Part shown: positions 22,707 through 33,029 of the stretch, in pieces
Layout of the letters: the number at the start of each line of letters is the position of its first letter
Position numbering within the stretch: the stretch's first letter is position 1
Source: Gallionella sp.
GTDB lineage: Bacteria; Pseudomonadota; Gammaproteobacteria; Burkholderiales; Gallionellaceae
Direction of reading: 5' to 3'
DNA: 33,029 nt
Assembly (NCBI GenBank): GCA_024653675.1
Contig: JANLIB010000192.1
Coordinates: 1-33,029, forward strand
Translations under genes and position numbers: made by a program
The notes under the pieces: model-generated
The model's database searches: none
What the model saw: the letters and a program-made list of their open reading frames with translations, nothing else
Told to the model about the DNA's origin: nothing

Positions 22707-23507
22707 ATGACCCTGAACCCCCTGCATATCTCTGCCGACATCTGGCGCAACCGCTATCTGCTCGGCCAGCTCGTCAAGCGCGACGTGCTGCTGCGCTATC
22801 GCGGGGCGATGTTCGGCGTGATGTGGGTCTTCCTCAGCCCGCTGATCATGCTGGCGATCTTTGCTTTCATCTTCGGTCAGATATTCCAGGCACGCTGGCC
22901 TCAACAGGAAAGCGGCATCCCTTTCTGGCTGTTGCTCTACAGCGGTCTTATCGCCTTCAACCTGTTCGCCGAAACCATTTCCCGCGCGCCCGCGTCGGTT
23001 CGCGGATATCCCAGCTTCGTCAAGAAAATCATTTTTCCGGTGAGCATATTGCCCCTGGTGCCGCTTGGCGCCGCGCTGGTGCATGGAGGATTCAACTTCC
23101 TGATCCTGCTTGCCGCCCTCGCCTGGACCGGCCATCTGCATGCCGGCATCCTGCTGTTCCCTTTACTGATTACTCCTTTGCTCTTGCTTGCCTTGGGGCT
23201 GTCGTGGTTTTTTGCGGCATGGGGGGTGTTCATCAAGGACATGACCCAGATCGTGCCGGTGTTCGTGCAGATGCTGATGTTCCTGTCACCGGTGTTCTAT
23301 CCGGCAAGCGCGGTGCCTGAAGCGCTTCGCCCCGTTTTCCATTACAACCCGTTGAGCACAGTGATCGAGTCATGCCGCGCCACAGTAACCGGCCAGCCGG
23401 TTGAATGGGGGGCATGGGGTATGGCGTTTGTTTTCTGCCTGGTTGCGGCAATCCTGGGTTATGCCTTCTTCCAGCACAGCAGGGATGAGTTCGCCGATGC
23501 GCTCTGA
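22707..23507 (+). CDS. wzm: ABC transporter permease, polysaccharide export (Wzm-like)
   Basis: LVKRDVLLRYRGAMFGVMWVFLSPLIMLAIFAFIFGQIF...FLSPVFYPASAVPEALRPVFHYNPLSTVIESCRA. Confidence 0.9.
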   Translation: MTLNPLHISADIWRNRYLLGQLVKRDVLLRYRGAMFGVMWVFLSPLIMLAIFAFIFGQIFQARWPQQESGIPFWLLLYSGLIAFNLFAETISRAPASVRGYPSFVKKIIFPVSILPLVPLGAALVHGGFNFLILLAALAWTGHLHAGILLFPLLITPLLLLALGLSWFFAAWGVFIKDMTQIVPVFVQMLMFLSPVFYPASAVPEALRPVFHYNPLSTVIESCRATVTGQPVEWGAWGMAFVFCLVAAILGYAFFQHSRDEFADAL

Positions 23508-24702
23508 CATTGCCATCTCGGTCAGGAACCTGACCAAGACTTATCGTATCTTTGGCCACCCAGGCGACCGGATCAAACAGGCGCTCACGTTTGGCAAAAT
23601 GCGCTTTCACCGTGAGTTCACTGCCTTGCAGGATATATCCTTCGAAATCAAAAAAGGGGAAACTGTCGGCATCGTTGGCCGCAATGGCTCTGGCAAGAGC
23701 ACCCTGTTACAACTTCTTTGCGGCATTCTCAAGCCAACCTCCGGCACGGTGCAGGTCAATGGCCGTGTTTCTGCGCTGCTGGAACTGGGCGCCGGGTTCA
23801 ACCCGGAATTCACCGGGCGCGAGAACGTCTATTTTCAGGGCGCGGTGATGGGGCTGACGAGGGCGGAAATGGATGCGCGCTTCGCCGATATCGCAGCCTT
23901 TGCGGATATCGGCGATTTCATCGACCAGCCGGTGCGGATTTATTCGAGCGGGATGTTTGTAAGACTGGCATTCGCTGTTGCCGTGCATGTGGATCCGGAT
24001 ATTCTGATAATCGATGAGGTTCTGGCAGTTGGCGATACGATATTTCAGCAGAAATGCATAGACCAGATATCCATGCTGCAATCCCAAGGTACGACGATTA
24101 TCGTGGTATCGCACAATCCTTACCATATTGAGCGTTTGTGCCACCAGGCAGCTGTTTTGCATCAGGGCAAACTATCCGATCTGAGGCCAGCCAAGGAAAT
24201 TCTGGCGCAGTACCATGAAATGGTTCAAGAGGATATGGGTCCTTCTCCGGGTATGAATGAGAGCCTCCGGGAAGGTTCTCATGAACTTTATTTCGAAAAA
24301 GTATTGATCGAGAACGCTTCTGCATTTGTCACCAACAGAGTCCTGACGAACGAACCCATGTGTATCATAGCTGAAGTTTTTGCAAGATGCCCCATGGACA
24401 ATGTTCGTTTTCGTTTCGAACTTTGCTCCTCAAGCAATGATATTGTAGCGGTGGTTGCCACCAATGGCCTATCCGAAGCCTGGCAACTCAACGGAAAACA
24501 CCGCATTTCATTTACTTTAAATCCCTGCCAACTCACATCAGGCTGGTATTACCTAAACGCTATAGCAAGCAGCAAATACGTTAGACTTGACACTTGGCAA
24601 CGCGTTGTCGATTTCAAGGTTTTACTTCGAGACAAGAGCGCGCAAGATCTGTCACTGGATCAAGGCATTTTCGTCTGCCATGGTCATTGGGAATTTTCCT
24701 GA
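23497..24702 (+). CDS. wzt: ABC transporter ATP-binding protein, polysaccharide export (Wzt-like) with C-terminal extension
   Basis: Walker A GRNGSGKST; YSSGMFVRLAFAVAVHVDPDILIIDEVLAVGD; ~160-aa C-terminal extension like Wzt substrate-binding domains; overlaps wzm. Confidence 0.9.
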   Translation: MRSDIAISVRNLTKTYRIFGHPGDRIKQALTFGKMRFHREFTALQDISFEIKKGETVGIVGRNGSGKSTLLQLLCGILKPTSGTVQVNGRVSALLELGAGFNPEFTGRENVYFQGAVMGLTRAEMDARFADIAAFADIGDFIDQPVRIYSSGMFVRLAFAVAVHVDPDILIIDEVLAVGDTIFQQKCIDQISMLQSQGTTIIVVSHNPYHIERLCHQAAVLHQGKLSDLRPAKEILAQYHEMVQEDMGPSPGMNESLREGSHELYFEKVLIENASAFVTNRVLTNEPMCIIAEVFARCPMDNVRFRFELCSSSNDIVAVVATNGLSEAWQLNGKHRISFTLNPCQLTSGWYYLNAIASSKYVRLDTWQRVVDFKVLLRDKSAQDLSLDQGIFVCHGHWEFS

Positions 24703-24737
24703 CAACGCGACAACACTGAGTATGATTTATTGAAACT

Positions 24738-25838
24738 ATGGACAAATTTGGAATAGACAGTCATAAGCTCATTTACCACCCGCAGCGCGTGACACAGTTT
24801 CTGGATGCGGGTGAAAACTGGGAACTTGCCAAACACGTCTACCCGATTTATGTGGAAGTTTCTCCAGTAGGAGCTTGTAACCACCGCTGCACCTTTTGCG
24901 CGGTTGACTACATTGGCTACAAGAGCCAGATGCTGGATGTCGGCGTGCTTTCCGGACGTTTGGCCGAAATAGGGCGGCTCGGCGTCAGGAGCATCATGTA
25001 TGCCGGCGAAGGCGAGCCGCTGCTGCACAAGAAAATCAACGAGATCGTCAAAGCGACAAAAAATGCCGGCATCGACGTGTCGTTCACCACCAATGCCACG
25101 GTGCTGAATGAAGCATTTGTCGAACAATCACTGCCGCTAACTTCCTGGATAAAGGTTTCCATCAATGCCGGCACTGCTGCCACCTACGCAAAAATTCATC
25201 AAACCAAGGAACGGGATTTTGACCGGGTAGTGGTCAACCTGAAACATGCGGTTGAATACAAGAAAGCTCATGGGCTGGACTGTACGATAGGCGCGCAATC
25301 CCTGCTTCTACCGGAGAATTCAGATGAGATGGAAACGCTGGCGCTGCTGTGCCGCGATGAAATCGGGCTGGACTACCTTGTGGTCAAGCCGTATTCACAG
25401 CACATGTTCAGCGAAACCCATGTCTATGAGAATGTCGATTACAGCGCTTACCTGGCGATGGCATCATCTCTTGAAAAGCTGAACACGGAAAACTTTCATG
25501 TGGTATTTAGAGAAAATACCATGCGGAAATATATGGAAGATGAAAGCTCGCGTTACAAAAAATGCAATGCGACCCCGTTCTTCTGGGCTTATGTCATGGC
25601 CGACGGGTCGGTCTATGGGTGCAGCGCTTACCTGCTCGACAAACGCTTCGAATATGGTAACCTCAACGAGCAATCATTTCAGGCGATATGGGAAGGCGAG
25701 CGGCGCAAGGCTAATTTTCACTATGTCAGGAATGAACTGGACATCATGGAATGCCGGAAAAACTGCCGTATGGATGAGGTGAACCGCTATCTTTATCAGC
25801 TGCGCGAAAACCTTGTTCAGCACGTGAATTTTATTTGA
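24738..25838 (+). CDS. Radical SAM/SPASM (or twitch)-type protein
   Basis: CNHRCTFC (CxxxCxxC), [10 protein letters not shown]-terminal GCSAYLLD...ECRKNC. Confidence 0.88.
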
Positions 25839-25845
25839 GTCCATC

Positions 25846-26841
25846 ATGAAAACCTTAATCACCGGCGGCGCCGGTTTTATCGGCAGCCACTTGGCGGAAT
25901 TACTGATCGGGAAAGGGCACGAGGTTATCGTCGTCGACAATCTGCTCTCCGGGCGCCTGAAAAATCTGCAGTCGGTTACCGGGCATGCCGGATTCAAGTT
26001 CACCCAGGCGGATATTCGCGACATGGCTTCCCTGCAGCCGCTCTTTGAAAATGCGGACTGGGTATTTCACCTCGCCGGGCTGGCGGATATCGTGCCTTCG
26101 ATCGAAATGCCGGCGCAATACTACAGCACCAATGTCACCGGCACCTTCAACGTGCTGGAGTGCGCGCGTCAATGCGGCGTGAAACGGCTCATCTATGCTG
26201 CATCATCGTCAAGTTACGGCATTCCGGATGTGTATCCCACGCCGGAATCGTCTCCGATCAAACCGCAATACCCCTATGCCCTGACCAAATATATGGGAGA
26301 AGAACTGGTGCTGCACTGGTCTAGCGTTTACAAGCTGCCCGCCGTCTCTTTACGCCTGTTCAATGTGTTCGGAACACGATCCCGCACATCCGGGGCATAT
26401 GGCGCAGTCTTCGGCGTATTCCTGGCGCAAAAGCTCAATGGGAAACCTTTTACAGTAGTAGGAGACGGCACACAGACCAGGGACTTTACCTATGTCACTG
26501 ATGTTGCCGAAGCATTCTTGTGTGCGGCAGAATCCTCAATTTCCGGAGAGGCAATGAATGTCGGCAGCGGCAGCCATTACAGCGTCAATCGTCTTGTTGA
26601 ATTGCTGGGAGGAGATATCGAATATATTCCCAGACGCCCCGGGGAGCCTGATTGTACATTCGGTGACATATCCAGAATACAACGTTTGCTTGGATGGAAA
26701 GCCAGAGTCAGCTTTGAAGAAGGCGTAAGCCGGATGATAGAGCGCATCAACGACTGGAAGGATGCGCCGGTATGGGATCCTGCCAGCATCAATCAGGCGA
26801 CCAGCTCATGGTTCAAATATCTGGGAGAAAAGCAGCAATGA
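25846..26841 (+). CDS. NAD-dependent epimerase/dehydratase (extended SDR, nucleotide-sugar epimerase)
   Basis: MKTLITGGAGFIGSHLAELLIGKGHEVIVVDNL (GxxGxxG), YPYALTKYMGE (YxxxK). Confidence 0.9.
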   Translation: MKTLITGGAGFIGSHLAELLIGKGHEVIVVDNLLSGRLKNLQSVTGHAGFKFTQADIRDMASLQPLFENADWVFHLAGLADIVPSIEMPAQYYSTNVTGTFNVLECARQCGVKRLIYAASSSSYGIPDVYPTPESSPIKPQYPYALTKYMGEELVLHWSSVYKLPAVSLRLFNVFGTRSRTSGAYGAVFGVFLAQKLNGKPFTVVGDGTQTRDFTYVTDVAEAFLCAAESSISGEAMNVGSGSHYSVNRLVELLGGDIEYIPRRPGEPDCTFGDISRIQRLLGWKARVSFEEGVSRMIERINDWKDAPVWDPASINQATSSWFKYLGEKQQ

Positions 26842-27440
26842 CGAAAGAACTGGAAGACATGCAGCTTGCGAAACGGGCTGCAAAATTTGCGGCATTGCTG
26901 GGGAGCTGCGAAGTCACCGGCAGGAATGGCTCTTCGCTGGGAACAGAAGCCGGCATCGCAACCGCCTTGCAGATTCTTACCCGTATGCGCGGCAAAAACG
27001 GCAGCGTTTATGTCATCGGCAACGGCGGCAGCGCCGCAGTGGCAAGCCATGCGGTAATCGATCTTATCAATGTTGCGAAGCTGCGCGCATTCACGCTGCA
27101 TGAACCATCGGTGCTCACCTGCATTGTCAACGATTACGGCTACGAGAACGCCTATTCACGCCTGCTGGCGCATATGGCGCGACCGGAGGATATATTGATT
27201 GCCATCAGCAGTTCCGGACGTTCGATGAATATCCGCAATGCGGCGACGCAGGTTATCAACAACGGCGGCAGCGTTATCACCTTAAGCGGTTTTCTGCACG
27301 ACAATCCGTTACGCTCCATGGGTGATGTCAATATCTGGCTGGATATCAGCGATTACGGCCTGGTCGAGATCGGGCACCAGTTCATTCTGCATAACATGTC
27401 CGACCGCTTTGGCGCAGGCTACGGAAGCACCGCAGCATGA
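26838..27440 (+). CDS. SIS-domain phosphosugar isomerase (GmhA-like)
   Basis: VYVIGNGGSAAVASHAVIDLIN...ILIAISSSGRSMNIRNAA; ATGA overlap with the upstream epimerase. Confidence 0.85.
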   Translation: MTKELEDMQLAKRAAKFAALLGSCEVTGRNGSSLGTEAGIATALQILTRMRGKNGSVYVIGNGGSAAVASHAVIDLINVAKLRAFTLHEPSVLTCIVNDYGYENAYSRLLAHMARPEDILIAISSSGRSMNIRNAATQVINNGGSVITLSGFLHDNPLRSMGDVNIWLDISDYGLVEIGHQFILHNMSDRFGAGYGSTAA

Positions 27441-28960
27441 GCACAGAAAAAATCCTCGACTTGCAGGAACTTGTGGCGCGTGCCCGGCAACTCCGCGACG
27501 GCGGAAAACAGGTAGTGCTGTGCCACGGCACTTACGACCTTATGCACACCGGGCACATCCGTTATCTGCAACGCGCAAAGCAGGAAGGCGATATTCTGCT
27601 GGTCACGGTCACTGCCGATGCCTATGTCAACAAGGGTCCTGGCCGGCCGGTGTTCAATGAGCAACTGCGCGCCGAAAGCCTGGCTGCGCTGGCCTGTGTC
27701 GATTATGTCGCCATCAACCATGCCGTTTCCGCAGTCGAAGCGCTGCACGCAATTCAGCCCAATATTTACGCCAAAGGCAGCGATTACCGCTCGCACAGCG
27801 AAGATGTGACGGGGAATATCGCCCTGGAACAGGCTGCTGTCGAAGCGCACGGCGGACGTATTTTCTATACCGACGAAATTACATTCAGCTCCAGCAACTT
27901 GCTGAATTCCTACTTTGACGTTTTCCCGCCGGAAGTCAGGGGATTCCTCAAGGATTTCCGCGAACGCTGGCCGGAAAATGAAGTCCGCAAAATGATTGCC
28001 ACGCTGGGCGATTTGAAGGTTCTTGTCGTCGGTGACGCCATCATAGACCAGTATCACTACTCCACCCCTCTGGGGCAGACCGGCAAAGGCAGCTTTCTGG
28101 CCGTGCGCTATGAATCGGAAGAACAGTTTGCCGGCGGCTCCATTGCCGTCGCCAATCACATCGCAGGGTTTGCCGGGAGTGTCACCCTGTTGACGGGGCT
28201 GGGTAAAGTTGACAGCCATGAGCAGTTTATCCTGGACAAATTGTCAAAAAATGTCGAACCGGTATTTTTTGCTTTTGCCGATGCGCCAACGGTAACCAAG
28301 CGGCGCTTTGTCGATAACGATCTGGCAAAATTTTTCGAGGTATATTTTTACAAGGAAAATGCCGTTTACGGAGAAGTGGAGCAGCGAATCTGCCAATGGC
28401 TCGGTGCAAATATTGCGTCATATGATGCGGTAATCGTGCCGGATTTCGGGAACGGCTTCATCACTCCGGCCATGATCAGCATCCTCTCCGCCAAAGCGAA
28501 ATACCTCGCGGTCAATACGCAGATCAACAGCGGCAATCGCGGCTATCATGTGATTCACCGTTATCCGCGGGCTGATTTCGTCTCTCTCAATGAACCGGAG
28601 CTGCGCCTGGCCGCGCATAACCGCAATGACCCTCTGGAAGCAGTGGCCGGCCTGATGGGCGAAAGGGTGCAGGCCAGGCAATTGGCCGTCACGCGCGGAA
28701 CCAAAGGAGTGATGATTTATGATCGGGACATGAGAATGTTTCACAATGTCCCGGCGCTGGCCACACGGGTGATCGACCGTATCGGTGCGGGTGACGCTTT
28801 CCTGTCTTTGGCGGGCATATGCCTTGCCAGAGGACTTGATGCACAGGTTGCCGCATTTGTCGGCAGCGTGGCTGCCGCAATGGATGTGCAGATCGTCTGC
28901 AACAGGGAACCCATCAATCCGGTTGGCCTCAATAAGTACGTTACCACCCTGTTGAAATAG
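27437..28960 (+). CDS. HldE-like bifunctional protein, domain order nucleotidyltransferase-PfkB kinase
   Basis: N-terminus CHGTYDLMHTGHIRYLQRAKQEGDILLV (HxGH); C-terminal PfkB-type kinase VVGDAIIDQYHY...VIDRIGAGDAFLSLAG. Confidence 0.87.
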   Translation: MSTEKILDLQELVARARQLRDGGKQVVLCHGTYDLMHTGHIRYLQRAKQEGDILLVTVTADAYVNKGPGRPVFNEQLRAESLAALACVDYVAINHAVSAVEALHAIQPNIYAKGSDYRSHSEDVTGNIALEQAAVEAHGGRIFYTDEITFSSSNLLNSYFDVFPPEVRGFLKDFRERWPENEVRKMIATLGDLKVLVVGDAIIDQYHYSTPLGQTGKGSFLAVRYESEEQFAGGSIAVANHIAGFAGSVTLLTGLGKVDSHEQFILDKLSKNVEPVFFAFADAPTVTKRRFVDNDLAKFFEVYFYKENAVYGEVEQRICQWLGANIASYDAVIVPDFGNGFITPAMISILSAKAKYLAVNTQINSGNRGYHVIHRYPRADFVSLNEPELRLAAHNRNDPLEAVAGLMGERVQARQLAVTRGTKGVMIYDRDMRMFHNVPALATRVIDRIGAGDAFLSLAGICLARGLDAQVAAFVGSVAAAMDVQIVCNREPINPVGLNKYVTTLLK

Positions 28961-28973
28961 CCCACAACGACAA

Positions 28974-29936
28974 ATGAGCCACTCCAGCCAGCTTGCCCTG
29001 CTTCGCTCCATGTTGCGCATCAGGCGCATCGAGGAAGCCATTGCAGACCGCTATGCCGAACAGGAAATGCGCTGCCCGATGCATTTGTGCATCGGGCAGG
29101 AGGCCATTGCCGTGGGCGTATGTGCAGCGCTCTCAAAAGGCGATTCGGTATTCAGCAACCATCGCGCTCATGGGCACTATCTGGCAAAAGGCGGCAGCCT
29201 CAATGCGATGGTGGCGGAACTGTATGGCCGTTCAACGGGCTGTTGCGGTGGGCGCGGCGGGTCAATGCACTTGATTGATCTGGATGCCGGATTTTCCGGA
29301 TCCACTCCCATTGTAGGAGGTACAGTGCCGCTGGCGGTCGGGGCAGCATGGGCTTCCTCGCTCAAACAAAGCGAGCAGGTTACAGTGGTTTTCTTCGGGG
29401 ATGGCTGCTTTGAAGAAGGCGTTGTTCACGAATCCATGAATTTCGCAAAGCTGCACAAACTACCGGTGGTATTTGTATGCGAAAACAATAATTTTTCCGT
29501 TTATACGCGCTTGAACGAGCGGCAACCTGAACGCCCGTTATACCGGGTGGCTGAAGCTCATGGCTTGGCCGCCTATACCGGCAACGGCAACGATGTGGAA
29601 GAAGTGCTGGCAATCTCGCGCAAGGCTGTCGGCCTCGCAAGGCAAGGGCAAGGGCCTCAGTTCATAGAGTTGCATGCTTACCGCTGGCGCGAACACTGCG
29701 GGCCAAACTTTGACGATGAATTGAATTACCGGACGGCGCAGGAAATCAAAGCGGGAATACATGACTGCCCTATCGCCAGTTACACCAGAAAACTGGAAAA
29801 GGAAAACGGAAACATCCATCTCGAAATTGAGCGATGCGAGGCCGAAATACAACGGGAGATCGCCGCCGCCTTCGAGTTTGCTCTCTCCAGCAAAAAACCG
29901 TCCATCGATGATTCCCAAGGGAAGGTCTACGCCTGA
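28974..29936 (+). CDS. TPP-dependent dehydrogenase E1-alpha-like subunit
   Basis: MLRIRRIEEAIADRYAEQEMRCPMHLCIGQEAIAVG; TPP motif GDGCFEEGVVHESMNFAKLHKLPVVFVCENNNF. Confidence 0.9.
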   Translation: MSHSSQLALLRSMLRIRRIEEAIADRYAEQEMRCPMHLCIGQEAIAVGVCAALSKGDSVFSNHRAHGHYLAKGGSLNAMVAELYGRSTGCCGGRGGSMHLIDLDAGFSGSTPIVGGTVPLAVGAAWASSLKQSEQVTVVFFGDGCFEEGVVHESMNFAKLHKLPVVFVCENNNFSVYTRLNERQPERPLYRVAEAHGLAAYTGNGNDVEEVLAISRKAVGLARQGQGPQFIELHAYRWREHCGPNFDDELNYRTAQEIKAGIHDCPIASYTRKLEKENGNIHLEIERCEAEIQREIAAAFEFALSSKKPSIDDSQGKVYA

Positions 29937-29937
29937 A

Positions 29938-31017
29938 ATGAAGCATCGGGATATCACTTTCGCAGAAGCGATCCGGGAAGGCCTTGATCAGTCCATGGAA
30001 AAGGATCCCCGCGTGATCGTCATCGGCGAAGGCGTGCCCGACCCCAAGGCGATTTTCAATACCACTGCCGGCCTGCGCGATAAATATGGCAACCGGAGAG
30101 TTTTTGACATGCCGCTGTCCGAGAACGGCATGACCGGAATTTGTATCGGCGCCGCACTTTCCGGGCTGCGTCCCGTCATGGTGCATCAGCGTATTGATTT
30201 TGCGCTATTGGCGATGGATCAATTGATCAATAATGCTGCCAAGTGGCATTACATGTTTGACGGCAAGGCATCCGTTCCGCTGGTTGTTCGCATGATCGTA
30301 GGCCGCGGATGGGGACAGGGCCCCCAGCATTCGCAGAGCTTGCAAGCCATGTTCGCGCATGCGCCGGGAATCAAGGTCATTATGCCGACGACTGCTTATG
30401 ACGCAAAAGGAATGCTGATCTCAGCGATAGAGGATAACAACCCGGTACTGTTCATTGAACATCGCTTGCTACACCAGATTAAAGACAATGTTCCCGAAGA
30501 ATACTATCGTGTGCCGCTGGGACAGGCAAAAGTGTTGCATGAAGGCGATGCCGTTACGGTAGCAGCCTTTTCTTATATGGCGGTCGAAGCACTGGTTGCC
30601 GCCAAAGCGCTGAAATCGGCCATGGGAATTGGCATCGACGTACTGGATATGCGTAGCGTGCGCCCGCTTGACGTTGCCAGCGTGCTGAATTCAGTCCGGA
30701 AAACGGGACAATTGATTGTCGCGGATACAGCATCTCGTACAGGCAGTATCGCAGGTGAATTAATCAGCCAGGTTTCCGAGCAAGCCTTTGATGCGTTGAG
30801 AACCCATCCTGTACGCATCGCCTGTCCCGATCATCCCGCTCCAACTTCCCACTTTATGACCAGGCACTATTACCCAGGCCCGCAAATGATTGCCGATGAA
30901 GTGCTCAAAATGGTCGGCGCGGATAAAACATCGACCAACTATCGCGAATTGTGCGCATTGATGTTGCACGACGGACCGCATGACGCCCCGAATCGCGGAT
31001 TTACCGGGCCGTTTTGA
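29938..31017 (+). CDS. TPP-dependent dehydrogenase E1-beta-like subunit (transketolase-like)
   Basis: ITFAEAIREGLDQSMEKDPRVIVIGEGVPDP...RVFDMPLSENGMTGICIGAALSGLRPVM; starts 2 nt after the E1-alpha stop. Confidence 0.9.
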   Translation: MKHRDITFAEAIREGLDQSMEKDPRVIVIGEGVPDPKAIFNTTAGLRDKYGNRRVFDMPLSENGMTGICIGAALSGLRPVMVHQRIDFALLAMDQLINNAAKWHYMFDGKASVPLVVRMIVGRGWGQGPQHSQSLQAMFAHAPGIKVIMPTTAYDAKGMLISAIEDNNPVLFIEHRLLHQIKDNVPEEYYRVPLGQAKVLHEGDAVTVAAFSYMAVEALVAAKALKSAMGIGIDVLDMRSVRPLDVASVLNSVRKTGQLIVADTASRTGSIAGELISQVSEQAFDALRTHPVRIACPDHPAPTSHFMTRHYYPGPQMIADEVLKMVGADKTSTNYRELCALMLHDGPHDAPNRGFTGPF

Positions 31018-31054
31018 TCCCTTTATGCAAGAACTTATTCAAGATTAATGAACC

Positions 31055-31393
31055 ATGAGCAGTAATCTTTATAATGCCAATACAAATACGCCAGCACCCG
31101 GGCATACCTGGCGCCAACTATCCGATAACGAGAGACTTGTTCTCGTTAATAATACTGTGACGGCCAGGATGGCGGCCTTAAACAAAACTCTTGTGGCTGT
31201 CGAAGCAAAGCTGGATGGCCAGGTAATAATAAGGCTGCTCGAACCTGTTCCCGCCGACAAACGCGGAACGCTGTTGCTTGATCTTGAAGCTTTTCTGAAG
31301 GAATCGATTGATCCGGGGCTTGTCGTCTGGCTCGAACCTTTCGGGGATCGCAGCTCGTTAAGAAACCTTCGTGGCATTGAGGTGAAATCATGA
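31055..31393 (+). CDS. Hypothetical 112-aa protein
   Basis: ATG start, TGA overlapping the next gene's ATG (ATGA at 31390-31393); no recognised domain. Confidence 0.65.
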   Translation: MSSNLYNANTNTPAPGHTWRQLSDNERLVLVNNTVTARMAALNKTLVAVEAKLDGQVIIRLLEPVPADKRGTLLLDLEAFLKESIDPGLVVWLEPFGDRSSLRNLRGIEVKS

Positions 31394-32529
31394 GTGAGGC
31401 TGTTCAGACGCGCGAAGGCACGCTGATCCTCGACTCCCACAAGCTTTCCTATCACACCGACCGGGTGGAGGCATGGGAAGCCGGGGAGCGGATAGCCCCT
31501 GTCAGTGTCGATATGTCTCTAACCCGCGCGTGCGGCGCCATGTGCACATTCTGCTACGCCATGATGCAGGAATCACAGGCGCGCAGCAGCATCAAGACTT
31601 CCCACGCGCTCAACCTGCTCGACGATTTTGCCGCCATCGGCATACGCAGCGTTTCGCTTGTTTCGGATGGGGAAAGCACGCTGTCGAATGCGTATGTGCC
31701 CTTCATTCAACACGCTGCCAAGCTGGGAATTGACGTTGGGAATGCCACGAATGCATGGGAATGGGAACCGGAAAAGATCGAACAGGTCTTGCCCCATCTC
31801 ACCTGGGTGCGCTTCACGGTTGCTGCCGGAAGGCCGGAAAGCTACGCAAAAATTATGTACAAAGGACCCGAACATACCGAAGTTTTTGACCGTGCCATTA
31901 AGCACATCAAGTACGCCGTTGACCTCAAGAAGCGCAATCGTCTGCCGGTAACGCTGGGCATCCAGATGGTGCTGATGCCGCACTTGAAAGAGGAGATCAT
32001 TCCATTCGCACAACTCGGCCTCGATCTTGGCGTTGACTATGCCGTGATCAAGCACTGCTCGGACGACGAACAGCACACGCTGGGCATAGACTACAGCCAA
32101 TATGAAAGCCTTCATGACCTGCTTATTCAGGCGGAGTCCATGAGCAACGAGCAAACCAAAATTATTGTCAAATGGGACAAGATCAGGGATGGGGATAAGC
32201 CGTCCTACAAGCGCTTCTATGGTCCCCAGTTTTTGCTGCAAATCAGCGGCAGCGGCCTGGTGGCGCCTTCCGGCATGTTCTTTAATGCCCGCTATTCCAA
32301 ACTCCATATCGGCAATTTTACTGAAGAACGGTTCATTGATATCTGGAAATCCGAGCGTTACTGGCGAGCCATGAATTATCTGGCTTCTCCGGCTTTCGAT
32401 GCCCAGACCATGATGGGCACATTGCCGATTCAGCACTATGTGAGTGTGGCACTCGACAATCACGCCAAAGGCATAGCGCGAATCCGTCCGGGCACCGGGC
32501 AAAAGCCGCTGCATGTTAATTTTTTGTGA
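31390..32529 (+). CDS. Radical SAM protein (second paralogue)
   Basis: CGAMCTFC (CxxxCxxC); shares DSHKLxYHxxRV near the N-terminus and HVNF(I/L) at the C-terminus with the 24738 protein. Confidence 0.87.
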   Translation: MSEAVQTREGTLILDSHKLSYHTDRVEAWEAGERIAPVSVDMSLTRACGAMCTFCYAMMQESQARSSIKTSHALNLLDDFAAIGIRSVSLVSDGESTLSNAYVPFIQHAAKLGIDVGNATNAWEWEPEKIEQVLPHLTWVRFTVAAGRPESYAKIMYKGPEHTEVFDRAIKHIKYAVDLKKRNRLPVTLGIQMVLMPHLKEEIIPFAQLGLDLGVDYAVIKHCSDDEQHTLGIDYSQYESLHDLLIQAESMSNEQTKIIVKWDKIRDGDKPSYKRFYGPQFLLQISGSGLVAPSGMFFNARYSKLHIGNFTEERFIDIWKSERYWRAMNYLASPAFDAQTMMGTLPIQHYVSVALDNHAKGIARIRPGTGQKPLHVNFL

Positions 32530-32583
32530 GAGGTTCATCGTGCGTCTGCTTTGACCACGCAATTTTAAGAAATAACAAAAAAA

Positions 32584-32919
32584 ATGGCTGCAACCCATGT
32601 TAACAATACCTCCCTGCATACTGAACATTTAACCCACCCAAAATACCGCGCAGACATTGACGGCTTACGTGCAATAGCAGTTCTCTCAGTTGTAGGGTTT
32701 CATGCTTTTCCTTCTTCGATTAAAGGTGGGTTTGTTGGCGTCGATGTTTTCTTCGTCATCTCCGGATTTTTAATCTCAACAATTATTATTGGCAGCCTGG
32801 AGCGAAATAGCTTTAGCTTCATTGAGTTTTATAGTCGTCGCATCAAACGCATATTCCCAGCCCTGCTTTTGGTATTGATTGCCAGCTTTGCAATTGGCTG
32901 GTTTGTGCCACTATGTTGA
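32584..32919 (+). pseudogene. Acyltransferase_3 (OafA/YrhL-like) N-terminal fragment, interrupted
   Basis: [49 protein letters not shown]...[27 protein letters not shown], then a stop within a palindrome at 32905-32936. Confidence 0.8.
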
Positions 32920-33020
32920 GCTAAACATAGTGGCACCTATGTGTAGAAGCAAACTATGTGCAGTTTTTCTAGCAACCCCATACGCTACCAGACGTTGCTG
33001 GTAGCGAACTATACATAGTT
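32905..33020. mobile_element. Possible end of an inserted mobile element (palindrome-rich, recurring CTATGT/ACATAG motif)
   Basis: Near-perfect 32-bp palindrome at the point where the OafA-like frame is lost; hairpin CGCTACCAG-ACGTTG-CTGGTAGCG at 32983-33006; AACTATACATAGTT at 33007-33020. Confidence 0.4.
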
Positions 33021-33029
33021 ACAGCGACT

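Follow-up and report, generated by a model that had tools for sequence, protein, structure and literature searches.

The window analysed here, a stretch of 33,029 nucleotides that constitutes the entire contig C297 of a Gallionella-like betaproteobacterium, ends in the ritC end of a RIT element inserted in an oafA gene. RIT ("recombinase in trio") elements are mobile elements with three adjacent, overlapping tyrosine-recombinase genes, ritA-ritB-ritC, and the copy found here presumably carries all three. The explanation that best accounts for the whole of the evidence, and which we regard as likely, combines a RIT element whose ritC end lies in oafA with a circular form bearing a palindrome and two mirror-image core sites. 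The presence of this palindrome on one side of the element suggests how these poorly understood elements insert.

A first-pass annotation had described an oafA-like acyltransferase broken at a near-perfect 32-bp palindrome, and both the break and the palindrome are borne out. The 5' part of an oafA-type O-acyltransferase gene (the first ∼107 codons, 32584-32910, plus strand) is interrupted here, with the remainder located on contig C198. Its frame (32584-32919) matches the Pfam family Acyl_transf_3 (PF01757, E 2e-14, profile positions 2-97 of 326), is cut after ..ASFAIGWFV and runs into a stop at 32919, within the palindrome GTGCCACTATGTTGAGCTAAACATAGTGGCAC (32905-32936). The latter consists of two 16-nt arms without spacer, complementary at 15/16 positions, or alternatively of 13 perfect pairs around GAGCTA, and its predicted DNA fold far exceeds chance expectation (z -6.8, with 0/200 shuffles as good). 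No second match to this palindrome (≤3 mismatches) was found in the window or in its shuffles, and an Rfam search of positions 31000-33029 gave no match. The region upstream (22707-32529) looks like a polysaccharide cluster that oafA closes, encoding an ABC-2 permease, an ABC ATPase with a Wzt_C domain, two radical-SAM proteins, an NDP-sugar epimerase, a kinase/cytidylyltransferase fusion (PfkB + CTP_transf_like), and subunits of an E1-type thiamine-dependent dehydrogenase; such a dehydrogenase pair seems unusual within a cluster of this kind.

The terminus can be decomposed into a succession of short elements. The left half of the target site, GGCTGGTTT (32896-32904, plus strand), reads outward as AAACCAGCC, in which C5, G7, and C9 all agree with the half-site NNNGCNGNC discussed below. 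It is followed by an outer 6-bp spacer or overlap, O1 (GTGCCA, 32905-32910, plus strand), whose counterpart at the opposite end of the element (C198) reads GTACTA. Then come the 20-bp inner palindrome (32911-32930), made of two CTNNRCATAR motifs placed head to head (CTATGTTGAG/CTAAACATAG), and an inner 6-bp spacer, O2 (TGGCAC, 32931-32936, plus strand), which is the reverse complement of GTGCCA and separates the palindrome from the terminal repeat. The terminal inverted repeat itself, ACCTATGTGTAGAAGCAAACTATGTGCAGTT (32935-32965), is identical to the other end at 31/31 positions and contains an outer motif (32937-32946) and an inner one (32954-32963), 17 bp apart. A perfect 9-bp hairpin (CGCTACCAG/CTGGTAGCG, 32983-33006), possibly the transcription terminator of ritC, lies just past the ritC stop and is found at the same place in two genus relatives, G011 and G003. 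This hairpin and the sequence AACTATACATAGTT at 33007-33020 are both present as annotated at first, and the latter overlaps a third CTNNRCATAR motif, inverted, located 82 bp inside the element boundary (33009-33018, plus strand). The last ritC codons (..Ser-Leu-stop, 33019-33029, minus strand) close the window, the remainder of the gene lying past the contig end. The 110 bp with about six CTATGT/ACATAG motifs that had been noted after the palindrome were thus correct as to the motifs but not as to the length or number: position 33029 is the end of the contig, 93 bp inside the ritC end of the element, and CTNNRCATAR occurs five times near the window end (at 32911, 32921, 32937, 32954, and 33009), with three copies beyond the palindrome. 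Across the whole window we counted 11 copies versus 2.06 expected, a number reached in 0/100 shuffles.

Searching the genome with the window end retrieved four contig ends, C297, C298, C198, and C54. Those of C297 and C298 have exactly 99 bp in common, those of C198 and C54 another 99 bp, which looks like the overlap length of the assembly, and ACCTATGTGTAGAAGCAAACTATGTGCAGTT is found in both contig pairs in inverted orientation (31/31 bp). The rest of oafA lies on C198 directly behind this other terminal repeat and resumes in frame (LFADEYKQLGKHIAGG..), and homologues of the gene are uninterrupted at the insertion point (e.g., GWFVLLPVEFKQLGKH and GWYVLFADEFKQLGKH); a query of the joined oafA reads through this point with 81% identity in genomes G068 and G030. 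Based on the shared contig ends, the in-frame resumption of oafA, and the continuous homologues, we conclude that the genome holds two copies of the element, one within oafA and the other between C298 and C54. The gene preceding the second copy is, we assume, mntP-like. A search for the empty site of this copy by its flanks gave relatives that are homologous near the site and not across it, so that the exact site was not recovered. No contig of this assembly contains the element interior, a gap that a repeat would be expected to cause, and the eight matches obtained when searching the genome for its own tyrosine recombinases do not adjoin these ends. The oafA half on C198 (L008, C198:10000-16260, reverse-complement ∼1300) displays a second break, as the match to homologues shifts to another frame after approximately codon 410 of that half; the gene could be a pseudogene twice over, or the break could be a sequence error.

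The assignment to the RIT family is based on both gene content and end anatomy. The ritC gene lies close to one terminus: its closing codons are read on the minus strand of the final 11 bases here, and the corresponding terminus of G011 and G003 runs into RitC. In G003 the terminus is 85% identical over 118 bp and leads into an intact RitC of 338 aa, in an element of 1.45 kb that is probably an internal deletion, since a stub resembling the end of RitB precedes ritC; in G011 it is 80% identical and leads into the RitC C-terminus (MRLYHPVDDALMQFLQSL, followed by the stop), where the contig ends. Residues consistent with the catalytic set of tyrosine recombinases (R, K, H, R, H, Y) do not vary across the RitC alignment. 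In relatives that share this end anatomy, complete elements span ∼3.2-3.5 kb and encode RitA, RitB, and RitC, each a Phage_integrase protein; in the window copy the three adjacent rit genes would fall in the unassembled interior. Terminal inverted repeats, of ∼28-30 bp in RIT elements, are found at both ends (31/31 bp), a palindrome (32905-32936) adjoins the terminus, and two copies with distinct flanks, one of them inside oafA, occupy different sites. The elements with these ends encode Phage_integrase proteins rather than the DDE transposase that would lie beside the ends of a classical insertion sequence. Van Houdt and colleagues (PMC3414803, PMC2864759) described a RIT inverted repeat with an overlapping palindrome and stated that these match the usual recombinase sites poorly. 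The window feature is another member of the RIT family, and a palindrome at a RIT terminus had already been published (PMC3414803). The initial reading as a mobile-element junction with recombinase binding sites had therefore named the right class, without recognizing the RIT family or the restriction of the palindrome to one end. The follow-ups it had proposed came out in its favour: the rest of oafA, a second occurrence of the terminus (C298/C54), a recombinase gene adjoining it, and relatives continuous across the insertion point were found.

The palindrome is found on just one end in about three quarters of the related elements examined, and on either end equally often. Among the matches listed when species genomes were scanned with the RitC alignment, we considered 80 loci, and both ends were readable in 49 of them. 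An automatic geometric rule, with a chance rate of 0.0037, assigned the palindrome to the ritA end in 18 of these, to the ritC end in 17, and to both ends in 2, and saw none in 12; after reading L109 and L077 by eye the respective numbers were 18, 18, 3, and 10. Two of the three elements with two palindromes lie on contigs of 3.3-3.5 kb and may be assembly chimeras. The geometry is nearly invariant, and consists of a terminal repeat ending in CATAR, 6 bp, YTATG-N10-CATAR, 6 bp, and host DNA. The same 10-bp CTNNRCATAR makes up the outer and inner motifs of the repeat and both palindrome arms, the two repeat motifs being 17 bp apart in 34/34 elements, and a third inverted copy is found ∼82-106 bp inside most ends. 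The palindrome resembles the terminal motifs of its own element, and its outer spacer equals the inner one in most elements. In L098 (CAGCCC/TGACCA), L102 (GTGTCT/GGGCCC), and G003 (GTCTCG/TTATAG) the two outer spacers are identical and unlike the inner one. Five genomes (this one, Ferrigenium, Thauera sp. 28, Paraglaciecola, and Methylomicrobium wino1) harbor two copies with the palindrome on opposite ends. In the two pairs where the palindrome is asymmetric and thus informative (C297 versus C54, and L116 versus L117 of Paraglaciecola), it stays fixed in orientation relative to the element. In a Methylococcaceae MAG (L144, ∼6583), the ritC end of a RIT element bears a tandem pair of 26-bp palindrome units. 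We found neither the one-end rule nor the target form in the passages retrieved by keyword from PMC3414803, PMC8138268, PMC10214605, and PMC10322971.

Read outward from the 6-bp spacer, the host flanks on both sides display the half-site NNNGCNGNC, with 6.3 bits on the palindrome side and 5.0 bits on the other, versus 0.7 bits in a control further out. Since the same half-site occurs on both flanks, the target corresponds to a pair of inverted half-sites around 6 bp, which is the usual form of a tyrosine-recombinase core. Both flanks of the window copy agree with the 3/3 key bases of the half-site, and the oafA target, GGCTGGTTT-GTACTA-TTTGCAGAC, fits on both sides. The two copies of this genome and the Ferrigenium pair had suggested that the palindrome always lies on a defined side of an oriented target; this idea was dropped, as 35 elements show mirror-image half-sites. 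The flanks of four RIT elements (L129, L134, L139, and L146) look, by eye, like IS66-type transposase genes, and the outer spacers differ between ends in three of these four.

We propose that the Rit recombinases would release the element in circular form, its two ends brought together on either side of the palindrome. The joint of this putative circle would be a near-perfect 92-nt palindrome of the form motif-6-motif.motif-6-motif, that is, two equivalent, mirror-image core sites, each composed of motif-6 bp-motif. Strand exchange at one of these cores with a host half-site-6 bp-half-site would insert the element and leave the palindrome on one side, the choice of core setting the orientation of the element. 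The two outer spacers would then come from the exchange with the target, while the inner spacer, not being exchanged, would retain the sequence it had in the circle. Other pairings of cores would leave a palindrome without element, or an element without palindrome. Such a circle predicts that both ends are used equally, in agreement with the observed counts, and that the palindrome changes ends with its orientation to the element fixed, as in both informative pairs; an exchange replacing only the outer pair of spacers predicts outer spacers alike and a different inner one, as in L098, L102, and G003. The steps, their order, and the double-stranded DNA route are inferred. It seems somewhat probable to us that the attachment site of RIT elements is movable and has a double core, which would allow insertion either way into symmetric targets, with the palindrome on one side and the inner spacer as a record of an earlier target. 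Several findings sit uneasily with the circle: the target half-site motif is unlike the element motif, which can be explained only by assigning different Rit proteins to each; the outer spacers of the oafA copy differ (GTGCCA, GTACTA), requiring the resolution of a heteroduplex; and among the 49 elements ten have no palindrome and three have two. The difference between element motifs and target half-sites may be the reason for having several recombinases.

Both kinds of predicted by-products are seen, solitary palindromes as well as elements that lack one. Palindromes without RIT genes are found in Gallionella-like genomes (L161, L162, L163, L165, L169, L175, and L045), several of them flanked by target-like half-sites, with spacers that are inverted in L161, L163, and L169, direct in L162, and near-direct in L045; we consider them candidate excision scars. 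In genomic loci the joint pattern was found only as the tandem palindrome of L144, and no circle or excision was seen. Three phage-type contigs of IMG/VR (L181, L182, and L183) carry RIT genes, with a full set in L182, whereas L183 has a RitA-like fragment; L182 bears the palindrome at its ritC end, L181 has the same junction, and in L183 the palindrome appears to be at the ritA end, and in L181 and L183 it is found beside genes that look like those of a phage prohead protease and a capsid protein. Their joint pattern was considered as a sign of circles and rejected, as these are integrated ends with a target resembling the motif.

The palindrome could be older than the element, having served RIT as a target in the host, either as a REP-like repeat or as an att site already in place, as the element-free palindromes of L161, L163, L165, L169, and L175 might suggest. 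We regard this as very unlikely: the oafA frame resumes at once past the other end, where homologues are continuous, the palindrome switches ends along with the element, their relative orientation being preserved, its outer spacer mostly equals the inner one, and it resembles the terminal motifs of its own element. Alternatively, the one-sided palindrome might arise after insertion, by an in-place inversion of the element body (inner x far core) instead of by core choice at integration. This is geometrically feasible, given that the inner and far cores are inverted to each other, but flipping the body under a fixed palindrome would lose the asymmetric orientation, which is kept in both informative pairs (only two), and we hold such an inversion to be improbable.

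The element might also move as single-stranded DNA, with the 92-nt joint folded into one long hairpin and recombined in that form, as at integron attC sites. The predicted joint indeed forms a fold of 43 pairs (-51.8 kcal/mol, z -18), and strand-biased exchange is shown by the SE elements, another group that relies on tyrosine recombinases (PMC10214605). The joint nonetheless holds two complete cores of the double-strand type (motif-6 bp-motif), its near-perfect stem lacks unpaired bases, and no feature here distinguishes strand use; we would give this route a minor chance. An assembly artefact, with an intact oafA and C297 misjoined to a repeat, would account for a window that ends at a repeat and for the missing interior. 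It is hardly credible, as four contig ends agree on two distinct flanks to the left and two to the right, overlapping by exactly 99 bp, each half of oafA bears the end and the target half-site expected of it, and independent genomes show the same anatomy.

RIT elements share with integron cassettes (attC/attI) a tyrosine recombinase, a hairpin-forming site, and target half-sites unlike the element's own. In contrast to integrons, they lack a cassette/integrase platform and carry their own recombinases, and their hairpin is a near-perfect joint of two ends. They are widespread, as at least 573 RitC-like stretches were found in the species-genome scan, and 565 plasmid records hold RitC relatives at E 1e-30. 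Compared with the RIT elements of Van Houdt et al. 2012 (PMC3414803), those studied here have a palindrome at either end, in a geometry fixed at 6+20+6, together with paired motifs and target half-sites that are symmetric. A 2023 study (PMC10214605) counted the target specificity and the movement of RIT elements among the matters not tested. The anatomy fixes the element ends to the base, defines a rule for the target, and makes clear predictions as to circles and scars, so that RIT mobility becomes directly testable and annotation from sequence possible.

Parallels may also be drawn with other elements. SE elements (strand-biased circularizing integrative elements) and Tn554 (PMC10214605) likewise use tyrosine recombinases, have a 6-bp spacer between inverted joint motifs, show target specificity, and carry the spacer between sites. 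They differ in their genes, in having one spacer at the joint versus two cores here, and in that an extra palindrome between the ends is not described. Their characteristic gene sets are IntA-Tfp-IntB-Srap for SE and TnpA-TnpB-TnpC for Tn554, whereas the relatives with the same ends as the window carry RitABC instead. GInts (PMC5385486) resemble RIT elements in the operon of three tyrosine recombinases, the staggered exchange of 6-7 nt, and the circular intermediate, as proposed here for RIT; unlike the latter, they possess a fourth gene (ginD) and form large islands with cargo, their repeats are direct and imperfect, and the operon is located at one end.
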